A stretch of DNA of 28,648 nucleotides from a virus: the IMG/VR virus record IMGVR_UViG_3300008448_009310, positions 1 to 28,648 of that record; one strand, 5' to 3'. The position numbers and the translations under genes were made by a program. Shown in pieces: positions 2,154 to 28,494 of this stretch. How positions within the stretch are numbered: the first letter of the stretch is position 1; every line of letters begins with the position of its first letter. The notes beneath the pieces are model-generated. The model was not told where the DNA came from, did not search any database, and saw only the letters and a list, made by a program, of their open reading frames with translations.

Positions 2154-4589
<2,436 letters not shown>

Positions 4590-5575: not shown

Positions 5576-6607
5576 CTATTTAGCCCACCTCTTCATGGCA
5601 ATATGTCCCGCAAGTCCTGAAAATGCATTTCTTATGATGTCATGTTGGATGTTTGTCCTGCCGTTCCCTGCAAGAACCATGTCATTGATATCCTTCAACC
5701 CACGGAATCTCTCAGACCAAACACATACCTTATGACCGTCCTCCAAAAGACGCTCCATCGCTTCGGCAACTTGCTTGTTGCGAGGCTCATTGTCCAATGC
5801 ATAGATTAGGTCTGAATCCTTCAGTTCATCGGGAATATTCGTGGCATCCGACAATCCGACCATGGCTACGCAGTTGTCCAAGAACAGACTGTCCAATGGA
5901 CCTTCGACTACGATGACTTGCTTCTTGGGATCGCATCTGTCCAAGCCATACCATGTCTTTCCCGCGTCCTTGTCTGCCTTGACTGTCAGATATCGAATGG
6001 TGCTTCGATCAGGCTTACCATTCCCAATGATACGACCCTGTGCGCCAACCACCTTGCCATCTGTATCCAAGATCGGAATGACGATTCGTTCATCATCCCC
6101 TGCCTGTACATCGGGGTCAATGTTCTTAGCCCACTCGCCATAATCCTCTGAGTAATAGAGCCGACTCAGACTTTCCTTTGGCAAGCGTCTCTTGTGTGCC
6201 CACTTGACGGCGGGGTGATCGTCAGGCAGGGAATCCAATCGGGGAAGAAGGGCGAGGATCTTATCCTCTCTACGCACGGGCGCGTGTGGGAGCGCGTCCG
6301 CGTGTGTGCGCGTGTGCCCGTGCGAGACCCCCGTTTCCTTGAGTACTTCGAAGATGTACTGCTTGTATAGATTGGGATCTAGCATCTTCAACAGCCAACC
6401 TATGCTTGCGCTATAGTCGCAGTTGTGACACTTGCAGGAAAAGGATCCCTTCTTCTCGTACAGATAGAACCGAGCCTTGCTCTTGCTCTTCTGACTGTCA
6501 CCACACATGGGACATCGACACACCGCAAGACTCTGCTTCTTCCATTGAAAGCGGTCTAGGCGTGGTGATAGCAAGTTGATGTACTTCGTGTCGATGTGGA
6601 TCGGCAT
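5576..6607 (-). CDS. 61: DNA primase, T4 gp61 family
   Basis: 343 residues from the ATG at 6605-6607. A GTG eight codons upstream (6631) would give 351, but it lies inside the putative promoter; start choice is uncertain and no clear ribosome site is seen for either. Zinc-binding domain: CPMC at 32-35 and CKCHNC at 58-63. TOPRIM-type core: VIVVEGPLDSLFL near 231-243, then DLIYALDNE and LKDINDMVL. The family makes pentamer-type RNA primers with the gp41 helicase. The local sequence FYLYEKKGSFSCKCHNCDYS and NLYKQYIFEVLKE parallels T4 gp61. Between the zinc domain and the core, residues 94-111 are a His/Thr/Ala-rich insert encoded by unusually GC-rich DNA (6274-6331), resembling inserts in the helicase and deacetylase genes. 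Confidence 0.93.
   Translation of the reverse strand: MPIHIDTKYINLLSPRLDRFQWKKQSLAVCRCPMCGDSQKSKSKARFYLYEKKGSFSCKCHNCDYSASIGWLLKMLDPNLYKQYIFEVLKETGVSHGHTRTHADALPHAPVRREDKILALLPRLDSLPDDHPAVKWAHKRRLPKESLSRLYYSEDYGEWAKNIDPDVQAGDDERIVIPILDTDGKVVGAQGRIIGNGKPDRSTIRYLTVKADKDAGKTWYGLDRCDPKKQVIVVEGPLDSLFLDNCVAMVGLSDATNIPDELKDSDLIYALDNEPRNKQVAEAMERLLEDGHKVCVWSERFRGLKDINDMVLAGNGRTNIQHDIIRNAFSGLAGHIAMKRWAK
5577..5583 (-). promoter_or_regulatory. T4-type late promoter motif CTAAATA overlapping primase stop
   Basis: CTAAATA overlaps the stop codon of the primase (the TAG lies inside GCTAAATAGC) and sits 18 bases upstream of the ATG at 5559. It is framed by GGCTA/TAGCC, giving a small 5-bp inverted repeat. 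Confidence 0.6.
6274..6331 (-). repeat. GC-rich alternating purine-pyrimidine insert in primase gene
   Basis: A 58-base in-frame segment dominated by GCG, CAC, ACG and CGC codons, encoding a stretch containing HTRTHADA. The 18 bases at 6292-6309 are identical to 27849-27866 in the deacetylase gene. The surrounding gene is of ordinary composition. Confidence 0.7.
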
Positions 6608-6619
6608 TAGATTTGGAAT

Positions 6620-6648
6620 ACTGTACCCCACGATCTGTGGGGTGTCAA
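6620..6648 (-). promoter_or_regulatory. Putative sigma70-type promoter with palindromic spacer
   Basis: On the minus strand TTGACA (6643-6648) is followed by a 17-base spacer and TACAGT (6620-6625), a perfect -35 and a 4/6 -10 box. The spacer (6626-6642) is itself a 6-bp inverted repeat, CCCCAC/GTGGGG, with a 5-base loop, so the -35 and -10 flank a possible operator. It points at the primase, with the ATG 12 bases after the -10. It could serve early host-polymerase transcription. Alternatively the hairpin is an RNA structure in read-through mRNA. Confidence 0.5.
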
Positions 6649-9581: not shown

Positions 9582-9842
9582 TTATCCGCCCTTTGCTTTC
9601 TTCCAAAGATCGGCATCAGCAGTCTTGCGGGTCTTGCCACCCACAATGAAAGAGTTCACACGGGCGAATGCCCATTGATGGCTTGTAGCACCAGGACGGT
9701 GTCCCCCCTTCCATGCAGCCATGCCCCTGTCATACACTTTCTTGAGGATGCCGTATGAAATGCCGCTAGCCTTTGCTTTTTTTTCCAAAGCGGCGATGCG
9801 AGCCTCTGTAATGTCTTGTTTCAGGGACTTGTAGTTTTTCAT
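9582..9842 (-). CDS. DUF5824-like small phage protein
   Basis: 86 residues from ATG 9840-9842, which overlaps the stop of the 1201-residue gene as ATGA; translation is probably coupled. Pattern: SYGILKKVYDRGMAAWKGGH, RPGATSHQWAFARVNSFIVG, then GGKTRKTADADLWKKAKGG. I recognise this as the DUF5824-type module found in phage proteins, often attached to larger ones. The WAFARVNSFI segment resembles WAGKQVNFINRM near the C-terminus of the upstream fusion, so the two may be related modules. It is basic, with no signal or membrane segment. Biochemical role unknown. Confidence 0.75.
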   Translation of the reverse strand: MKNYKSLKQDITEARIAALEKKAKASGISYGILKKVYDRGMAAWKGGHRPGATSHQWAFARVNSFIVGGKTRKTADADLWKKAKGG

Positions 9843-12800
9843 GACTTCTTCTCGGGGTTGTAGCCCCATACCTTGAGTGCGAGCAACTTGCGTGTTGGGC
9901 GACCCTTCTCGTCACGCATGCCGCCCTTGGCACCCTTCATGCGGTTGATGAAGTTAACTTGCTTACCCGCCCATTTCCAATCGTTTGGTGTCCACTTTTC
10001 CTTGGGGGTGTCAAGCATGCGGATGATGGCACGGGCAGAGTCACGACCACTTGTGATCTTCTTGCCTCCTGCTCCTGCCTTTCCTGCCTCCTTGCGAGAC
10101 AGACCCGCTTCCTTGCCCTCGTCAGAATCAAGGAACGACTGAATCTCCTTGCCCGACATGTTTACGAGTTTCTGCCACTCCTTGTAGAGAGCCGACTTTT
10201 CCTCTTCCGACTTCTCTTCGCCAAGCCGCTCACGCTCTCCTGGAGTGTCCTTCTTATATGTCTTGACGATCTCGTCGCTGCCGACCAACAGCGGGCCTCT
10301 CTTGCCCATTGCAGTCCATTGCAGGACAGCATTGATCTTCTTCGATTCGTTCAGCCAGTTCTCTGTGGTATCGGTTTCCTCGCCGTGCATCTTCCACGCA
10401 GTAGCATAGAAGACTTCCTTCCAACGCTTGCCATATCGCTTTTGGAACTCCTTCTTGATCTTCTCTTTCTTGGAGAAGCGACGAGCAGGGCCGCTTGGAG
10501 GACTGACTTCGACCAAGAGGTAGTCAAAGTCTTCGTTGATGTCGGTCTTGGGCAATTCGCTGCCCATCTCGCTATCGCGGATTTCCTTCAGCAAATCAAT
10601 GTATGAACGAGTCAATTGGGCAGCCTCCTGCATGTTACGAGTCAAGCAACGCTCCTCGTAGGCAATTGCCATACGAAGTTTGATTGCGTTTCTTTCATCA
10701 GATTCATCGATCTTGGACAGACGCTCCATTGCATCGTCGTGTTCGTAGCCATTCTTGAGAGCCTTCAACTTACCCTTCTTGGCGAGTTTCTTGTACAGGG
10801 TGCTGTACTTCGATGGCTTGGTCTTGATGTCTTTCTCATCGGGATTGACAAACTCCCATGTCTGTGGATCGTCATCAGACATTGTCTTGCGCTTTTCAAG
10901 ACGCTTCTTGCGAAGTTCGGCTTCTTTCTTGCTCAGACCCGCGACATACTTCTTGGGTAGACCCGAACCCTTGTCCTTTGGGCTTTCCTTTGTTTTACCT
11001 GTCTTGGTCTTGAACTCCTTGCCCTTCGTGACATCTGCTTCAATAAGGGGATTGCCTTCCATCTCATCGCCCATACCGAGCATGCTGAGGAAACTCATGG
11101 CACCCGACACCAACTTAGTGGCGTAGACACCAATATCAATACCACCCGATTCCATGAACTTGTGGAATAGTTTGGCAATGATCTTGCCAATCTTGTTGTC
11201 TTGGGCAAACATTGAAAGGGTAACCCCTGCGCCCGAAGCCTTGTATGCCTGAAGCATGACTTCATCGCGGACACGCATGACTTCTCGCTTGAAATCTGCG
11301 GGTGGAATCTTGCCTTTCTTGTTCACCAAAGTGAAGACCTTTGCGCTGACTGCGGGAGTCTTCATGATCTCCGCAACAGCCTTCGCAGCATCTTTGACTG
11401 CGGTCTTTTCAACAAGTTCTTCCTCTTCTTCCTCGTCGCCCTTGCGCTTGGAGTTGATATCGGGCTGTGGGTAGATCGCTTCTGCGGGATCGACAACCAT
11501 GCCTGTCTTACTGAGGAACTGCAATCCAATCAGCACCTTTGTGGACATGTGACTGCGGTCGCCAAGGCTGAACTTGATGTTGGGATATTTCTTGCCATGG
11601 AACTCAATGTCCATGAGAACCACAAGACGCTTCTTCTCACCGATACCGCTCTTGACGGTGATGCGACTGACGATCTTTTTAGTGACCTTCTTGCCATTGG
11701 GCAACTTGAAGGTGACTGTGTGATCGCCGTTGTCCTTGATGTCCTCGGCATGGATCATGTTGTAGCCGCTGTTGCCCGTGTCGATCTTGGCGGTGTACTC
11801 CGCACCATCGATCTTCACTTCTTCACGCACGGCTAGGTTGGAGAACAACTTCCAATGTGCCTTGTTGAGGATGTAATCGACCAAGTCCTCTACAAGTTCC
11901 TCCCCCTTGACATTGTTCTTGCCCTTGCCATCCTCGTAGTAGCGGTAGTAAATGTTTCCGCTACCTGGGCTTGCATTCATCTCAATGATGTATGGCTTGC
12001 CCTGATTGATGACATGGTCGATACCGACATAGTAGCACTTGCTTACCCTTGCAGCCCGCTCCACCAACTTTATTTCCTCGTCAGAAAGTTGGAAAGACCC
12101 GCCCTTTGAACCACGGGCGATATTCGTGCGGAAGTCCTTGGGTGCCTTGTCTCTCTTGGCACACGCAAAGATCTTTCCGTTCAGCACGATGCTGCGGACA
12201 TCGTTCTTGAAGTCAGGTAGGAACTCCTGAATGATGACTTCTGCCTTGTACTTCCATAGCGTCTGAAGCACCGACTTCAGGCTCTCCATGCTTTCGATCT
12301 TGGAGACACCGATGCCTTCCGCGCCCGTGAGAGTCTTCACAATGATCGGGAACTTGCCACCGACTTCCTTGACCGCAGTTTCAATGTTCTCCTCGTTGGC
12401 AACGAATGCCGTGCGGGGGTGGGGCAACTCATGCTTCTTCAGGGCGATTGCCGTCTCCAACTTGTTGGCGCACAGTTCCATGCCACCACGCTCGTTGACC
12501 ATGAACACGCCATTGTTCTGTAGGATGGTCATGATTGCGACTCCGATGTCGCTATTCATCACGCCACCGCGAACAATAGCAACCGTGTCGCTTGGATTGA
12601 TGGTGCAGTCCTTGCCTTCACCGTCATAGTTCTTGATGACGATCTTCTTCGATGCAACGCTAGAAATGTCAACCTGAGCCTTGCTCGTCTTCACGGCATA
12701 GAACTCAATCTTTCGTCGCTTGCAGATCGCTTCCATCTTCTCAATGGTGTCGCTCAGATCCTTCTCCGACGATGTGAGGGCTAGGATGGTTACCTTGTCC

Positions 12801-13444
12801 TCTCCATCCTTGGCTTCGAAGATGTACTCTTCCTTGAGGTTCAATCCTTTTCGGACATCGTTGTACATCTTCTTCTTGAGAGCCATGTCGGTTCCCGCGA
12901 CACCTGTGGCAAACTTCTTGAAGTCGCCATCAAATGCTGCTGCTCTCATCTTGGAGGCAGACATGCCCTGAACGCCCTGTGCATCATCGTCACGGGCTTC
13001 CCCTGCCTGTACGACTTCGAAGTTGTCGAATGAGTACTTGCGCTTCTTTGGATCGCGCTCGGCGGTTCTGCCCTTGTACTTTGCGATGTTCTTGAAATTC
13101 TCGACCTGATCGCTGCCTGCAATCATCACGATGTTCTTGTAGCCCAAGTCACAGACATGCAGAACCGCAGAGTATGGATCTCCCGCCTTGTTCAGAGGGA
13201 ACTTCGCCTTGGGGAAGAACTTCTTCAAGTACTCCACCTTCTGCTTATGTGTCAGGGGATTCTTTTTGGGATCCTGTGAGGTAGAGGCAAAGATGAAGTG
13301 ATCGGCATTCCGCTTGGATGCCTCGGAGAGAACTTTGTCAACAAGCACACCGTGACCGATTGTCGGTGGGTTCATGCGACCGAATGCAATGACTACCGTG
13401 TCTTTCTTCGGTGCTTCCGTGAGGTGCTGTGCAAAGTTCTTCAC
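9839..13444 (-). CDS. Fusion: nucleotidyltransferase + RimK-like ATP-grasp + RimB-like protease + phage modules
   Basis: 1201 residues, GTG start, overlapping the upstream stop as GTGA. Residues 1-11 (MKNFAQHLTEA) resemble the T4 capsid-targeting leader. Residues 15-200: cytidylyltransferase-like domain with TIGH (28-31) and a closing MSASKMR (161-167). Residues 215-530: RimK-type ATP-grasp, with the final Mg/ATP motif IIEMNASPGSGN (486-497); RimK adds glutamate to ribosomal protein S6. Residues 545-655: retropepsin-like domain of the RimB/DUF785 type, with DTG at 555-557, the VKSGIG block and LGDRSHM. Residues 680-800: unassigned helical. Residues 803-1201: Lys-rich modules, including LPKKYVAGLSKKE, TKPSKYSTLYKKL, GKRWKEVFYATAWK and the C-terminal WAGKQVNFINRMKGAKGG. 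RimK and RimB are normally separate bacterial proteins. Substrate unknown. Confidence 0.85.
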   Translation of the reverse strand: MKNFAQHLTEAPKKDTVVIAFGRMNPPTIGHGVLVDKVLSEASKRNADHFIFASTSQDPKKNPLTHKQKVEYLKKFFPKAKFPLNKAGDPYSAVLHVCDLGYKNIVMIAGSDQVENFKNIAKYKGRTAERDPKKRKYSFDNFEVVQAGEARDDDAQGVQGMSASKMRAAAFDGDFKKFATGVAGTDMALKKKMYNDVRKGLNLKEEYIFEAKDGEDKVTILALTSSEKDLSDTIEKMEAICKRRKIEFYAVKTSKAQVDISSVASKKIVIKNYDGEGKDCTINPSDTVAIVRGGVMNSDIGVAIMTILQNNGVFMVNERGGMELCANKLETAIALKKHELPHPRTAFVANEENIETAVKEVGGKFPIIVKTLTGAEGIGVSKIESMESLKSVLQTLWKYKAEVIIQEFLPDFKNDVRSIVLNGKIFACAKRDKAPKDFRTNIARGSKGGSFQLSDEEIKLVERAARVSKCYYVGIDHVINQGKPYIIEMNASPGSGNIYYRYYEDGKGKNNVKGEELVEDLVDYILNKAHWKLFSNLAVREEVKIDGAEYTAKIDTGNSGYNMIHAEDIKDNGDHTVTFKLPNGKKVTKKIVSRITVKSGIGEKKRLVVLMDIEFHGKKYPNIKFSLGDRSHMSTKVLIGLQFLSKTGMVVDPAEAIYPQPDINSKRKGDEEEEEELVEKTAVKDAAKAVAEIMKTPAVSAKVFTLVNKKGKIPPADFKREVMRVRDEVMLQAYKASGAGVTLSMFAQDNKIGKIIAKLFHKFMESGGIDIGVYATKLVSGAMSFLSMLGMGDEMEGNPLIEADVTKGKEFKTKTGKTKESPKDKGSGLPKKYVAGLSKKEAELRKKRLEKRKTMSDDDPQTWEFVNPDEKDIKTKPSKYSTLYKKLAKKGKLKALKNGYEHDDAMERLSKIDESDERNAIKLRMAIAYEERCLTRNMQEAAQLTRSYIDLLKEIRDSEMGSELPKTDINEDFDYLLVEVSPPSGPARRFSKKEKIKKEFQKRYGKRWKEVFYATAWKMHGEETDTTENWLNESKKINAVLQWTAMGKRGPLLVGSDEIVKTYKKDTPGERERLGEEKSEEEKSALYKEWQKLVNMSGKEIQSFLDSDEGKEAGLSRKEAGKAGAGGKKITSGRDSARAIIRMLDTPKEKWTPNDWKWAGKQVNFINRMKGAKGGMRDEKGRPTRKLLALKVWGYNPEKKS

Positions 13445-14681: not shown

Positions 14682-14756
14682 TAGGCGGGGCGGGAGTCGA
14701 ACCCGCATGAGGGCGATTATAAGTCACCACCTTTTACCACTATCAGGCACCCGCCC
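14682..14756 (-). tRNA. tRNA-Ile (anticodon UAU)
   Basis: Full cloverleaf by hand. Acceptor GGGCGGG/CCCGCCT (one G-U at the tip), U8, D arm CCT/AGG with GG in the loop. Anticodon stem GGTGA/TCGCC (one G-U) with loop CTTATAA, so U33 is followed by anticodon UAU, reading AUA. Five-base variable loop CTCAT. T arm GCGGG/CCCGC with loop TTCGACT. Discriminator A; CCA is not encoded. It starts five bases after the helicase stop, so it is likely cut from the same transcript. Bacteria usually read AUA with a lysidine-modified CAU tRNA; a UAU version does not need that enzyme. Confidence 0.9.
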
Positions 14757-14761
14757 GTAGT

Positions 14762-16195
14762 TTAAGACCAACCCTTTATGGTTGGCTTCTCGCGCCCGTA
14801 CCCGCCCGTGCGCCTGTGTGCGCCCCCGCCCCCGTGCGCGTGAGGGGCATCGTCTTCGTCTTGGTCATCGGCACCGTTGCCTTGAATCAACTGCTGTTGC
14901 GATTCGTCCACATCAAACAACTTCATCTTGGCACGGTCGATCCCGATCACGAACTTGCGATTCGTGGCGACATCGTTGTAGCGGTTCTTCAACTGCTTGA
15001 CCATGACCTGTCCCAACTCGTCCAACTGTTCCGTGGCGATGAGGGCGAACATGAAGTCTGCGGTGGCGGGTAGACCAAAAGATTCCGATGTGTCAGTCAG
15101 TTCCACATCGGTATTGCCGAAGCCCGAACGATTGGTCTGTGTTGCGGTGAAGATCGGCACCCCAACCTCCACAGCCAAGCCGCGAAGTTCCTCTGCAATT
15201 GCCTTGACATAGGTGTACGAATTGACATTTCCGTTCGCCTTGAAGCGAGACGATGCACAAATGTTCAGGTAATCGATGAAGATAACATCGGGCTTGAAGT
15301 TCTTCTTCAGGCGCAGTTCATCCAACAAGTGACGGAAGTGATTGGCATTCGCAGATGCCGTGGGGTACTCCTTGATCAGAAGTTTGCCTGTGATGCCCAT
15401 GGTCACCTTGGCAAGCCGCTTGGCATAGATCTCCATTGGCAACTTCTTGAGATCGTCTAATGTGATATCCATAAGGTTAGCATCGATTCGCTCTGCAATC
15501 CGCTCCTCTGCCATCTCACAGGTGATGTACAGGACATTCTTGCTCTGTGACAAGCAGTTAGCGGCATGGTGGCACATGAACAGGGACTTGCCCACGCCTG
15601 TACCCGCGAGGATGACATTCAGAGTCTTGTCGGGCACACCGCCGTTGGTGATCTTATTGAAGTAGTCTAGGTCGAATGGTGTCTTCTTTTCTACGCGGTG
15701 GTAGAAGTCGTACCGCTTCTCGGCATCCTCAATGAAATCGTGACCGATGTGTTCATCGAACGACACGCTGAGTGCCTTGGTCAGGATCTCGGGGATGGCG
15801 TTCTTCGACCGACCCTTCGCCTTCTTCTCGTCAAGGAGTTCGATGGACTCCATCAGGGCGTTGTAGACCGCCTTGTCCTTGCAGAACTTCTCGGTCTGAT
15901 CAACAAGCCACTCCTCATCAGGCTCCTCGGTGCCTTTGTCCATCGTCTCTACCAACTTGACACACTCATCAAACTCACCCTGAGATAGACCGTCCTGTTG
16001 ATTCAGGATGATCTTCAGGGCTTCGCGGGTGGGAGCGGTGGAGTACTTTTCGATGAACTCAGACACCGTGTTGAACAGCCGCTTCTCACAGGAGTCGTGA
16101 AAGTACTCCTGCTTGAGAAATGGTTGGACGCGGCGTGTGAACTCGGGTCTGTGAAGAAGACTGCGTAGGATGATGAGTTCAATCTTGTCGCTCAT
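14762..16195 (-). CDS. 41: Replicative DNA helicase, T4 gp41 family
   Basis: 477 residues, similar to T4 gp41 in length. DnaB-like hexameric helicase that unwinds ahead of the lagging strand and works with the gp61 primase. The N-terminal helical domain is at 1-170. The RecA-like core begins near 175, with Walker A ILAGTGVGKS (195-204), a VLYITCEMAEERIAERIDAN block (221-240), Walker B DVIFIDYLN (303-311), and a TATQTNRSGFG segment. The ATG at 16195 is chosen for MSDKIELIILRSLL; the ribosome site is weak. The tail from about 449 (DAPHAHGGGGAHRR, GGYGRE) is encoded by unusually GC-rich DNA at 14789-14848, resembling the inserts in primase and deacetylase, before the end KPTIKGWS. Confidence 0.95.
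   Translation of the reverse strand: MSDKIELIILRSLLHRPEFTRRVQPFLKQEYFHDSCEKRLFNTVSEFIEKYSTAPTREALKIILNQQDGLSQGEFDECVKLVETMDKGTEEPDEEWLVDQTEKFCKDKAVYNALMESIELLDEKKAKGRSKNAIPEILTKALSVSFDEHIGHDFIEDAEKRYDFYHRVEKKTPFDLDYFNKITNGGVPDKTLNVILAGTGVGKSLFMCHHAANCLSQSKNVLYITCEMAEERIAERIDANLMDITLDDLKKLPMEIYAKRLAKVTMGITGKLLIKEYPTASANANHFRHLLDELRLKKNFKPDVIFIDYLNICASSRFKANGNVNSYTYVKAIAEELRGLAVEVGVPIFTATQTNRSGFGNTDVELTDTSESFGLPATADFMFALIATEQLDELGQVMVKQLKNRYNDVATNRKFVIGIDRAKMKLFDVDESQQQLIQGNGADDQDEDDAPHAHGGGGAHRRTGGYGREKPTIKGWS
14789..14848 (-). repeat. GC-rich insert near helicase C-terminus
   Basis: A 60-base segment almost entirely of G and C, with CAC, GCG, GGC and CGC codons, encoding a Gly/His/Arg-rich tail. 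It has the same codon vocabulary as the 6274-6331 and 27836-27890 segments, but no long identical core. Confidence 0.55.
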
Positions 16196-27720: not shown

Positions 27721-28494
27721 TTACACCAAGCCATCGGGCTTGTCAAAGGGATCCGAGCCATATTTACAAACCTTCTCAAAAGTTTCGTATGTGTAGCCAA
27801 CTTCATTCAGAGTCTTTAGGACTTGCTCCAACTCCTCCCGCGTGATGTGCGCGTCCGCGTGTGTGCCCGTGTGTGCGTCCGCGCCCGTGGGGCGAATGTC
27901 ATGGAAGATGATGCTGATGCCCTTCTGAGCCTCTGCGGTCTCCCGTAGCCCCTCTAGGACGCGCTCCATGGCTCCGCTGCGGATCAGGGCTTCCCGTGGC
28001 TCCTCTTCCTTACCGAGTCTGTTCGGACTGAAAAACATGCGTTGTCCTGAGTAGAAGTGCGACTCGTTCCCAGGTCTTACATAGCAAAAGAATGGACTCA
28101 CGGCTGAGTAAAGAGTCTCATCAAAGTGAGAGTATGGAAATGCGAAGTGGGTCGGCTTGAATCCCGCTCCTGCCATGTCTTCCATTGCGGGAAGCACCTC
28201 GTCATCGATGTAGCGGTCGATGTCATAACGGCGACTGTACACCAATGCATCCTTATGACTCTTGCTATGACAGCCAATCACATGACCATCCTCGCGCAGT
28301 TCCTTGAGCATCTGAAGTTCGCTGACTTCCAACATGTGGAACGAATCGACATAGAACGCAACCTTTGCGTTGTACTTGTTGAACAGGTCACGGCATGCAT
28401 ACCAGTTCGACACCGAATGGTCATCGAACGAAAGGTGTACATGTGGGTACTTGACCTTTTCCTCGCTGAGAAATGATCGGAATGCCTGAGCCAT
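27721..28494 (-). CDS. NodB-type polysaccharide deacetylase (CE4)
   Basis: 257 residues. NodB motifs: LSFDD (21-25), GCHSKSH (74-80), a modified FAFPYSHFD (117-125), and IIFHDI (195-200). Family members remove N- or O-acetyl groups from polysaccharides such as peptidoglycan, chitin or capsule. Between IIFHDI and the last helix (REELEQVLKTLNEVGYTYETF) residues 201-217 carry a His/Thr/Ala-rich insert encoded by GC-rich DNA, related to the primase insert. No signal peptide is seen, so a cytoplasmic or virion role is more likely than secretion. A CTAAATA motif lies just upstream, although the gene sits between replication genes. It could be an adhesin-processing enzyme or part of the glycan system. 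Confidence 0.88.
   Translation of the reverse strand: MAQAFRSFLSEEKVKYPHVHLSFDDHSVSNWYACRDLFNKYNAKVAFYVDSFHMLEVSELQMLKELREDGHVIGCHSKSHKDALVYSRRYDIDRYIDDEVLPAMEDMAGAGFKPTHFAFPYSHFDETLYSAVSPFFCYVRPGNESHFYSGQRMFFSPNRLGKEEEPREALIRSGAMERVLEGLRETAEAQKGISIIFHDIRPTGADAHTGTHADAHITREELEQVLKTLNEVGYTYETFEKVCKYGSDPFDKPDGLV
27836..27890 (-). repeat. GC-rich alternating purine-pyrimidine insert in deacetylase gene
   Basis: An in-frame segment made of GCG, GAC, GCA, CAC, ACG and GGC codons, encoding GADAHTGTHADAH, a near-palindromic peptide. GCGTCCGCG occurs twice (27851-27859 and 27875-27883). The core at 27849-27866 is identical to the primase copy. Confidence 0.7.

Follow-up and report, generated by a model that had tools for sequence, protein, structure and literature searches.

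Why do three unrelated genes of one phage, coding for a DNA primase, a replicative helicase and a polysaccharide deacetylase, carry the same kind of short GC-rich stretch, and is it the DNA or the peptide that comes first? The initial annotation offered two explanations: a small element that spreads within coding sequence, or a Z-DNA-prone DNA signal tolerated as peptide. The 28,648-nt stretch under study (hereafter the window) matches without a difference an IMG/VR viral contig of 168,426 bp (G001, the parent contig) from position 98798 of that contig onward. Judging by its gene content, the window comes from the interior of a T4-like phage genome. The features discussed below are as follows.

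5576..6631, minus strand: DNA primase gene (PHROG 47, E 1.2e-74, profile search)
6273..6326, minus strand: primase-linker tract in two-base register, separating the zinc-finger from the TOPRIM-type part
6292..6309: primase copy of the 18-mer GCGCGTCCGCGTGTGTGC
14762..16195, minus strand: DnaB-like replicative helicase gene (PHROG 19, E 6.7e-124; Pfam DnaB_C)
14791..14844, minus strand: helicase tract in two-base register, C-terminal tail of the DnaB-like helicase
27721..28494, minus strand: polysaccharide deacetylase gene (Pfam Polysacc_deac_1, E 5e-14)
27837..27892, minus strand: deacetylase tract in two-base register, loop after HDIRP
27849..27866: deacetylase copy of the 18-mer

Zinc-finger and TOPRIM-type are what we take the two primase parts to be; the start codon of this gene may lie further in, and the alignment with its homologues begins at MPIHID. 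The nearest named isolates share about 40% identity in the primase and about 60% in the helicase (Synechococcus phages, Melnitz and others), and the 15 helicase matches listed stop at residues 429-448, ahead of the tract. The deacetylase had no match in the phage collection. All three tracts occupy stretches where the protein looks indifferent, namely an interdomain linker, a C-terminal tail and a loop. Structure prediction gave poor models for the primase (mean pLDDT 46) and the deacetylase (54), so disorder of the linkers is inferred from position and alignment.

Elsewhere in the window, an Rfam tRNA match (14682-14756) fills the gap that separates the helicase stop codon from the neighbouring gene. 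An 811-residue product (2154-4589) has 9-base repeats and an extended Gly-X-Y region resembling collagen and is probably a tail-fibre protein, and a 1201-residue protein (9839-13444) combines a RimK-like ATP-grasp domain, a zinc-protease-like domain and other parts.

Two tracts share an 18-base word

The initial annotation reported 18 bases common to the primase and deacetylase genes, and this was borne out in full. The window has two copies of GCGCGTCCGCGTGTGTGC and no more, at 6292 and 27849; after the 18 bases come one mismatch and then 6 identical bases, and both copies are read in the same frame as ACA CAC GCG GAC GCG, giving THADA. The next-best match in the parent contig, which is the helicase tract, has 3 mismatches, and a search of viral contigs found the exact 18-mer in just two, the parent contig and one relative.

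Low-complexity strings easily share long words, and a model that keeps the two-base register and the palindrome ban described below reaches 18 common bases about once in a thousand trials (P = 0.001, 3000 trials; mean 9.2). In 2000 trials each, however, dinucleotide shuffles of the two tracts shared at most 16 bases, and codon shuffles at most 17. Chance or plain GC-richness is contradicted by these shuffles, none of which reached 18, and also by the even lags, the phase of A, the third positions, the synonymous recoding and the homologous sites in several lineages reported below; we consider it very improbable. The remaining two tract pairs have 9 bases in common each, which is ordinary (P 0.35 and 0.57), and the helicase copy is thus alike in vocabulary only.

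The tracts follow a two-base register

The grammar of the tracts is simple: C (or G) stands at one position and A or G at the next, and GGG and CCC fit without breaking the register. Across 24 tracts, 6-base self-matches were found at even lags (among them 37 at lag 6, 65 at 8, 28 at 14, 36 at 18 and 30 at 20), and all odd lags scored 0 except 1 (one match), 17 (8) and 31 (1). Multiples of three were not preferred. The total of 408 self-matches compares with 138 in shuffles (maximum 185 in 300), an excess at short lags. TRF detected weak even-period arrays in the primase tract (periods 8 and 18) and the deacetylase tract (16 and 10) and no array in the helicase tract. The A's are confined to one two-base phase in 297 out of 309 cases (34 tracts, several from close relatives), as opposed to 67.8% in shuffles.

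The rhythm also governs synonymous choice. Fourfold third positions were in register in 272 out of 303 cases (23 tracts), where the codon use of the genomes predicts 155.8 (z 13.8), with the reservation that tracts were first chosen by composition, which favours register. The same reservation holds for the window, where 35 of 36 third positions follow purine-pyrimidine alternation (19.1 expected): 12/12 in the primase tract (6.4), 12/12 in the helicase tract (6.5) and 11/12 in the deacetylase tract (6.2). T was never used at the third codon position in the tracts of the parent contig (0/52, 19.2 expected).

Less biased is a test in which the peptide is held fixed and the observed codons at protein-anchored sites are compared, by assumed Z costs, with 400 synonymous recodings each. 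The observed codons had the lower cost (P < 0.05) in 22 of the 24 rows from nine tract-bearing contigs, the exceptions being the deacetylases of G004 (0.085) and G006 (0.070); in a tract-free contig, G003, none of the three rows was significant (0.062, 0.070 and 0.097). The 28 rows include one chance pattern match in G007 (P 0.985), which was excluded, and the anchors missed some sites, such as the deacetylases of G007 and G013.

Additionally, every one of the three reading frames is used for the word CACGGGC (12, 10 and 27 times in 32 tracts, relatives included). Since the two-base rhythm disregards the three-base code, the DNA pattern seems to be primary, with the protein following it and the encoded residues (H, T, A, R, G, P, D) being whatever that pattern happens to spell. 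A DNA-level alternation of purines and pyrimidines tolerated as peptide, as the initial annotation had proposed, is well supported by the register, the third positions and the three-frame word, as well as by the intergenic tract and the Z-cost ranks described below. These linkers are a clean case of a DNA-level rhythm of two overriding codon choice inside genes, in homologous positions of several phage lineages.

One tract lies between genes

In two related loci, L085 and L086, a tract is found between genes, flanked on one side by the immediately preceding RNA-like element, 70 bases long and perfectly conserved, and on the other by a TAAATA box, presumably a late promoter. The two intergenic tracts differ by 2-base steps, and a third locus, L081, holds a decayed version.

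The 70-base non-coding element itself (2768-2837 of L085) is letter-perfect in 13 of 154 loci, whereas L085 and L092 agree at no more than 73% of positions over the 590 bases that surround it. It has tRNA-like ends; neither ARAGORN (5 of its loci) nor Rfam (3 of them) recognized it. In L085 and its relatives it stands just before the counterpart of the gene that is next to the helicase stop in the window.

Homologous linkers carry tracts in related phages

A Markov scanner, whose scores are circular for the nine tracts on which it was trained, gave 52 bits to the deacetylase, 48 to the helicase and 44 to the primase tract of the parent contig, with the next-best match at 22. It matched the same three genes in G002 and G005, found a clear helicase tract and weak ones at the other two sites (18 and 17 bits) in G004, and found no tracts in G003. 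Tracts are present at all three sites in G006, G007, G008 and G013 and at both sites covered by the contigs G011 and G012. None was found at these sites in G009, where the helicase and deacetylase are present, or in G014, which has all three genes. Altogether, 10 of the 13 family contigs examined have tracts at the covered sites, with letters that differ between relatives. GC content is 0.40 to 0.47 in the three tract-free contigs and 0.46 to 0.57 in the others for which a figure is given.

The untrained scans are free of the scanner's fault. A 50-base two-phase likelihood scan ranked the primase, helicase and deacetylase tracts 1, 2 and 4 in the parent contig and put the three sites on top in G005. 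It also drew in two further linkers: the five together are the top five in G006 and stand within the top six in G008, where another site is fourth. The fourth linker belongs to a small protein (MSDII...MGILGG) without a family match and bears tracts in G006, G007 and G008. The fifth belongs to a PHROG 23027 protein and bears them in G001, G006, G008, G011 and G012.

We then scored 48-nt windows by the cost of adopting the Z form, using assumed cost values, and called outliers those below the best of ten Markov genomes. The three best windows of the 168-kb parent contig are the primase, helicase and deacetylase tracts, in this order (32.1, 35.2 and 35.4, compared with 47.5 for the best Markov genome), which agrees with the predicted Z-DNA proneness suggested in the initial annotation. 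Outliers numbered six in G001, four in G004, three in G005 (exactly its three tract sites), seven in G006, six in G008, four in G012 and none in G003; the five linkers account for 24 of these 30, and the remaining 6 are in other parts of proteins. The fifth linker is no outlier in G005 or G003, nor is the fourth in G001. In G003 the fourth linker contains the strongest two-base-periodic stretch of the contig, in a CA-rich form. No outliers occurred in 50 kb each of the named T4-like phages S-CAM9 (GC 0.40), Melnitz (0.37) and phiM12 (0.484). All three window tracts alternate purines and pyrimidines over 24 nt with at most 3 errors, as do three further stretches of the window and 22 stretches of the parent contig in all.

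Tract content follows the palindrome ban of each genome

The parent contig contains no ACGT, AGCT or CCGG, although 419, 415 and 559 are expected from trinucleotides, and 79 GGCC rather than 478. All three missing words are also absent from the window. ACGT and AGCT are both absent in 10 of the 13 family contigs; the exceptions are G002 (one ACGT), G014 (four) and G006 (three of each). Two ACGT were found in L081, a locus of a further contig, and both words are present in G015, a contig outside the family. CGCG is missing from G005, G009, G012, G013 and G014 and occurs once in G007 and three times in G006, and some lineages additionally purge TCGA or CTAG. Synonymous shuffles agreed with the purge in all five contigs tested. 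It looks like extreme restriction-site avoidance. In the stretches of S-CAM9, Melnitz and phiM12, ACGT and AGCT are retained and it is other palindromes that are scarce (for example GATC, 4 vs 176 expected in Melnitz, and GGCC, 15 vs 148 in phiM12).

Each tract obeys the ban of its own genome. CGCG stands 2-4 times in every one of 13 tracts of G001, G002, L009 and G008, in one of three tracts of G004, and in none of 14 tracts of G005, G006, G007 and G012. From the letters alone, a T-free strand has no stop codon on either strand and can form no four-base palindromes other than CCGG, GGCC, CGCG and GCGC; the lack of stops and of most palindromes may help such DNA to be tolerated.

At the synonymous level, the coding sequence of the parent contig is also purged of words that are not palindromes, namely ATCGAG (1 vs 75 expected), TTCGAG (1 vs 53), GACGAC (2 vs 57), GACTGG (1 vs 52) and CCAG (92 vs 556). 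Genes for N6/N4-type DNA methylases are present in G005-G008, with a match below the cut-off in G003 and none in G001; C5 methylases were found in none of the six contigs searched.

In the CGCG-free class, 13 tracts together contain 20 copies of a second word, CGCACGGGCG, compared with 1.4 expected under the register-plus-ban model; two members of this class rest on short stretches (L011, 0 CGCG in 15.8 kb; L085, 0 in 4.2 kb). Register and ban were thus rejected as the whole source of this sharing in that class. We also rejected a 10-base site confined to tracts in the parent contig, where 7 of the 9 exact copies of CGCACGGGCG lie outside them. CACGGG is over-used at synonymous sites throughout the genome (142 vs 46.5, tracts included), and CGCACGGGCG is partly such a genome-wide habit.

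A source in the host genome was rejected as well: a 19-base core pattern matched one place each in Virgisporangium, Helcobacillus and Microbacterium, which we take to be high-GC Actinobacteria, and no host repeat. In viral contigs, a 17-base core pattern matched 10 stretches, from family members and others. Some of the non-family contigs, G015 among them, hold long simple repeats.

In the primase and deacetylase, tracts seem to replace linker sequence

The initial annotation called the segments inserts. The primase linker (LKETG to ED) has 20 residues in the window and 19 in the tract-free L013 and L015; the helicase tail has 49, and the closest lineage that lacks a tract (L052 and others) has 50. 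Among all distinct helicase tails, tract-free ones range from 41 to 55 residues and tract-bearing ones from 45 to 60. The deacetylase loops of the tract-free G009 and G014 are about equal in length to that of the window, and longer primase tracts occur in G006, G007 and G013. Given these near-equal lengths, no clean empty site was seen in tract-free relatives, be it in the primase linker, the helicase tail or the deacetylase loop, nor any alignable junctions, which makes the term insert doubtful. As far as the alignments tell, in the primase and deacetylase the tract stands in place of the linker and is not added to it.

What makes and keeps the tracts

If function resided in the peptide, for example in a His-rich or disordered linker, the DNA pattern would be a by-product. 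The deacetylase offers some grounds for this: A-H-x-G-T-x-A is kept in 8 of 8 homologues in one alignment, in one lineage with AT-rich codons, and a shortened G-T-H-A persists even in the tract-free G014. However, the core is lost in G009, the primase and helicase tract peptides are not conserved between lineages, synonymous positions follow the register, one word is read in three frames, and one tract lies between genes. The primase comparison takes in L016 and L017; L018 gave a blank row, from an upstream stop or a fragmentary sequence. The same peptide in the same place in orthologues, which would speak against the proposals of the initial annotation, was thus found for part of the deacetylase loop and not for the primase or helicase, and we think a peptide-level function unlikely. 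We are equally sceptical of a small mobile or copied element moving between sites of the genome. In its favour are the 18 bases common to two genes and the greater similarity of tracts within a genome than between genomes (P 0.002 and 0.0006). Among tracts of a single genome flavour this excess weakens (P 0.02 and 0.054), no inverted repeats of at least 16 bases were found over the window tracts, linker lengths reveal no clean empty site, and the exact 18-mer is limited, among viral contigs, to the parent contig and one relative.

The main rival explanation is that the tracts are kept as a selected DNA structure that would flip easily into Z-DNA or a similar form and might absorb supercoils, or mark a place for recombination, where the DNA is transcribed. 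The Z-cost outliers in six of seven family contigs, mostly at the five linkers, their absence from the S-CAM9, Melnitz and phiM12 stretches, the 24-nt alternation of the window tracts and the tract-bearing homologous linkers of several lineages are all consistent with it. On the other hand, GGG and CCC, common in the tracts, weaken Z-forming power; T is avoided even though TG costs as little as CA in the assumed cost table; G003 has no outlier, a fifth of the outliers (6/30) lie elsewhere in proteins, and the fourth and fifth linkers are not kept throughout. Nor does purifying selection show strongly on the register. In comparisons of close relatives, the tracts have diverged as fast as their flanks (106/795 and 2050/14691 sites; the pairs are not independent), and register-breaking transversions are just slightly rarer in them (34/106 vs 802/2050). 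We therefore prefer regrowth with tolerance; selection for structure seems to us rather unlikely.

According to this preferred explanation, which we believe about as readily as we doubt it, the tracts are simple-sequence DNA with a (C/G)(A/G) rhythm of two bases. Replication slippage in even steps, together with the copying of short pieces, would make and renew them at places that the protein can tolerate, and the same kind of DNA would be regrown while its letters turn over. The tracts would survive because a nearly T-free strand cannot hold a stop codon in any frame and spells a hydrophilic peptide. Slippage or short copying is suggested by the internal repetition, the weak even-period arrays and the length changes in unit steps (2 bases between L085 and L086, CCCACG-type copies between G006 and G007, the two cases examined). 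Among tract substitutions A-G changes outnumber C-T changes (49:23), as opposed to 500:748 in flanks. Evidence against this explanation comes from the partly conserved deacetylase peptide, from register-breaking changes being just slightly rarer in tracts than in flanks, and from the lack of tracts in G003, G009 and G014 where the sites are covered. Slippage alone also leaves the sharing of CGCACGGGCG and the persistence of tracts at homologous sites unexplained.

A more speculative idea, to which we give tentative and limited credence, is an element defined by register and not by sequence, selected at homologous linkers and regrown with new letters under the restriction-site ban of each genome. 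If this were true, unrelated proteins would share a DNA structure and not a peptide. If the tracts are selected, they are a small and convenient system in which to study the role of alternating purine-pyrimidine DNA in a phage. If they are not, they show how slippage can write protein linkers that restriction-site avoidance then trims, and they caution against taking shared peptides such as THADA for protein homology.

Comparison with known systems

Simple-sequence, or cryptically simple, DNA is known from coding regions, and the tracts resemble it in their short-lag self-similarity, small-step length changes and low-complexity peptides. They differ from it in the two-base register that runs through GGG and CCC, in a vocabulary common to unrelated genes, in homologous sites across lineages and in having no pure repeat array. 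No description of such tracts in phage linkers was found among the literature matches listed, which consisted of titles and abstract openings and lay mostly outside subscription journals.

In a survey of prokaryotes, RY patterns are described as generally suppressed (PMC4060949). The three tracts, putatively Z-prone, match the surveyed RY tracts in reaching 24 nt with at most 3 errors; unlike those, they lie inside coding linkers of a phage family and override synonymous choice. Rickettsia palindromic elements are described as in-frame insertions of about 150 bp in unrelated genes (PMC10969869). Although our tracts are 31-95 nt long (scanner bounds), have neither a palindrome nor a fixed peptide, and showed no clean empty site in the relatives compared, they likewise place the same kind of DNA, in frame, at tolerant sites of unrelated genes.
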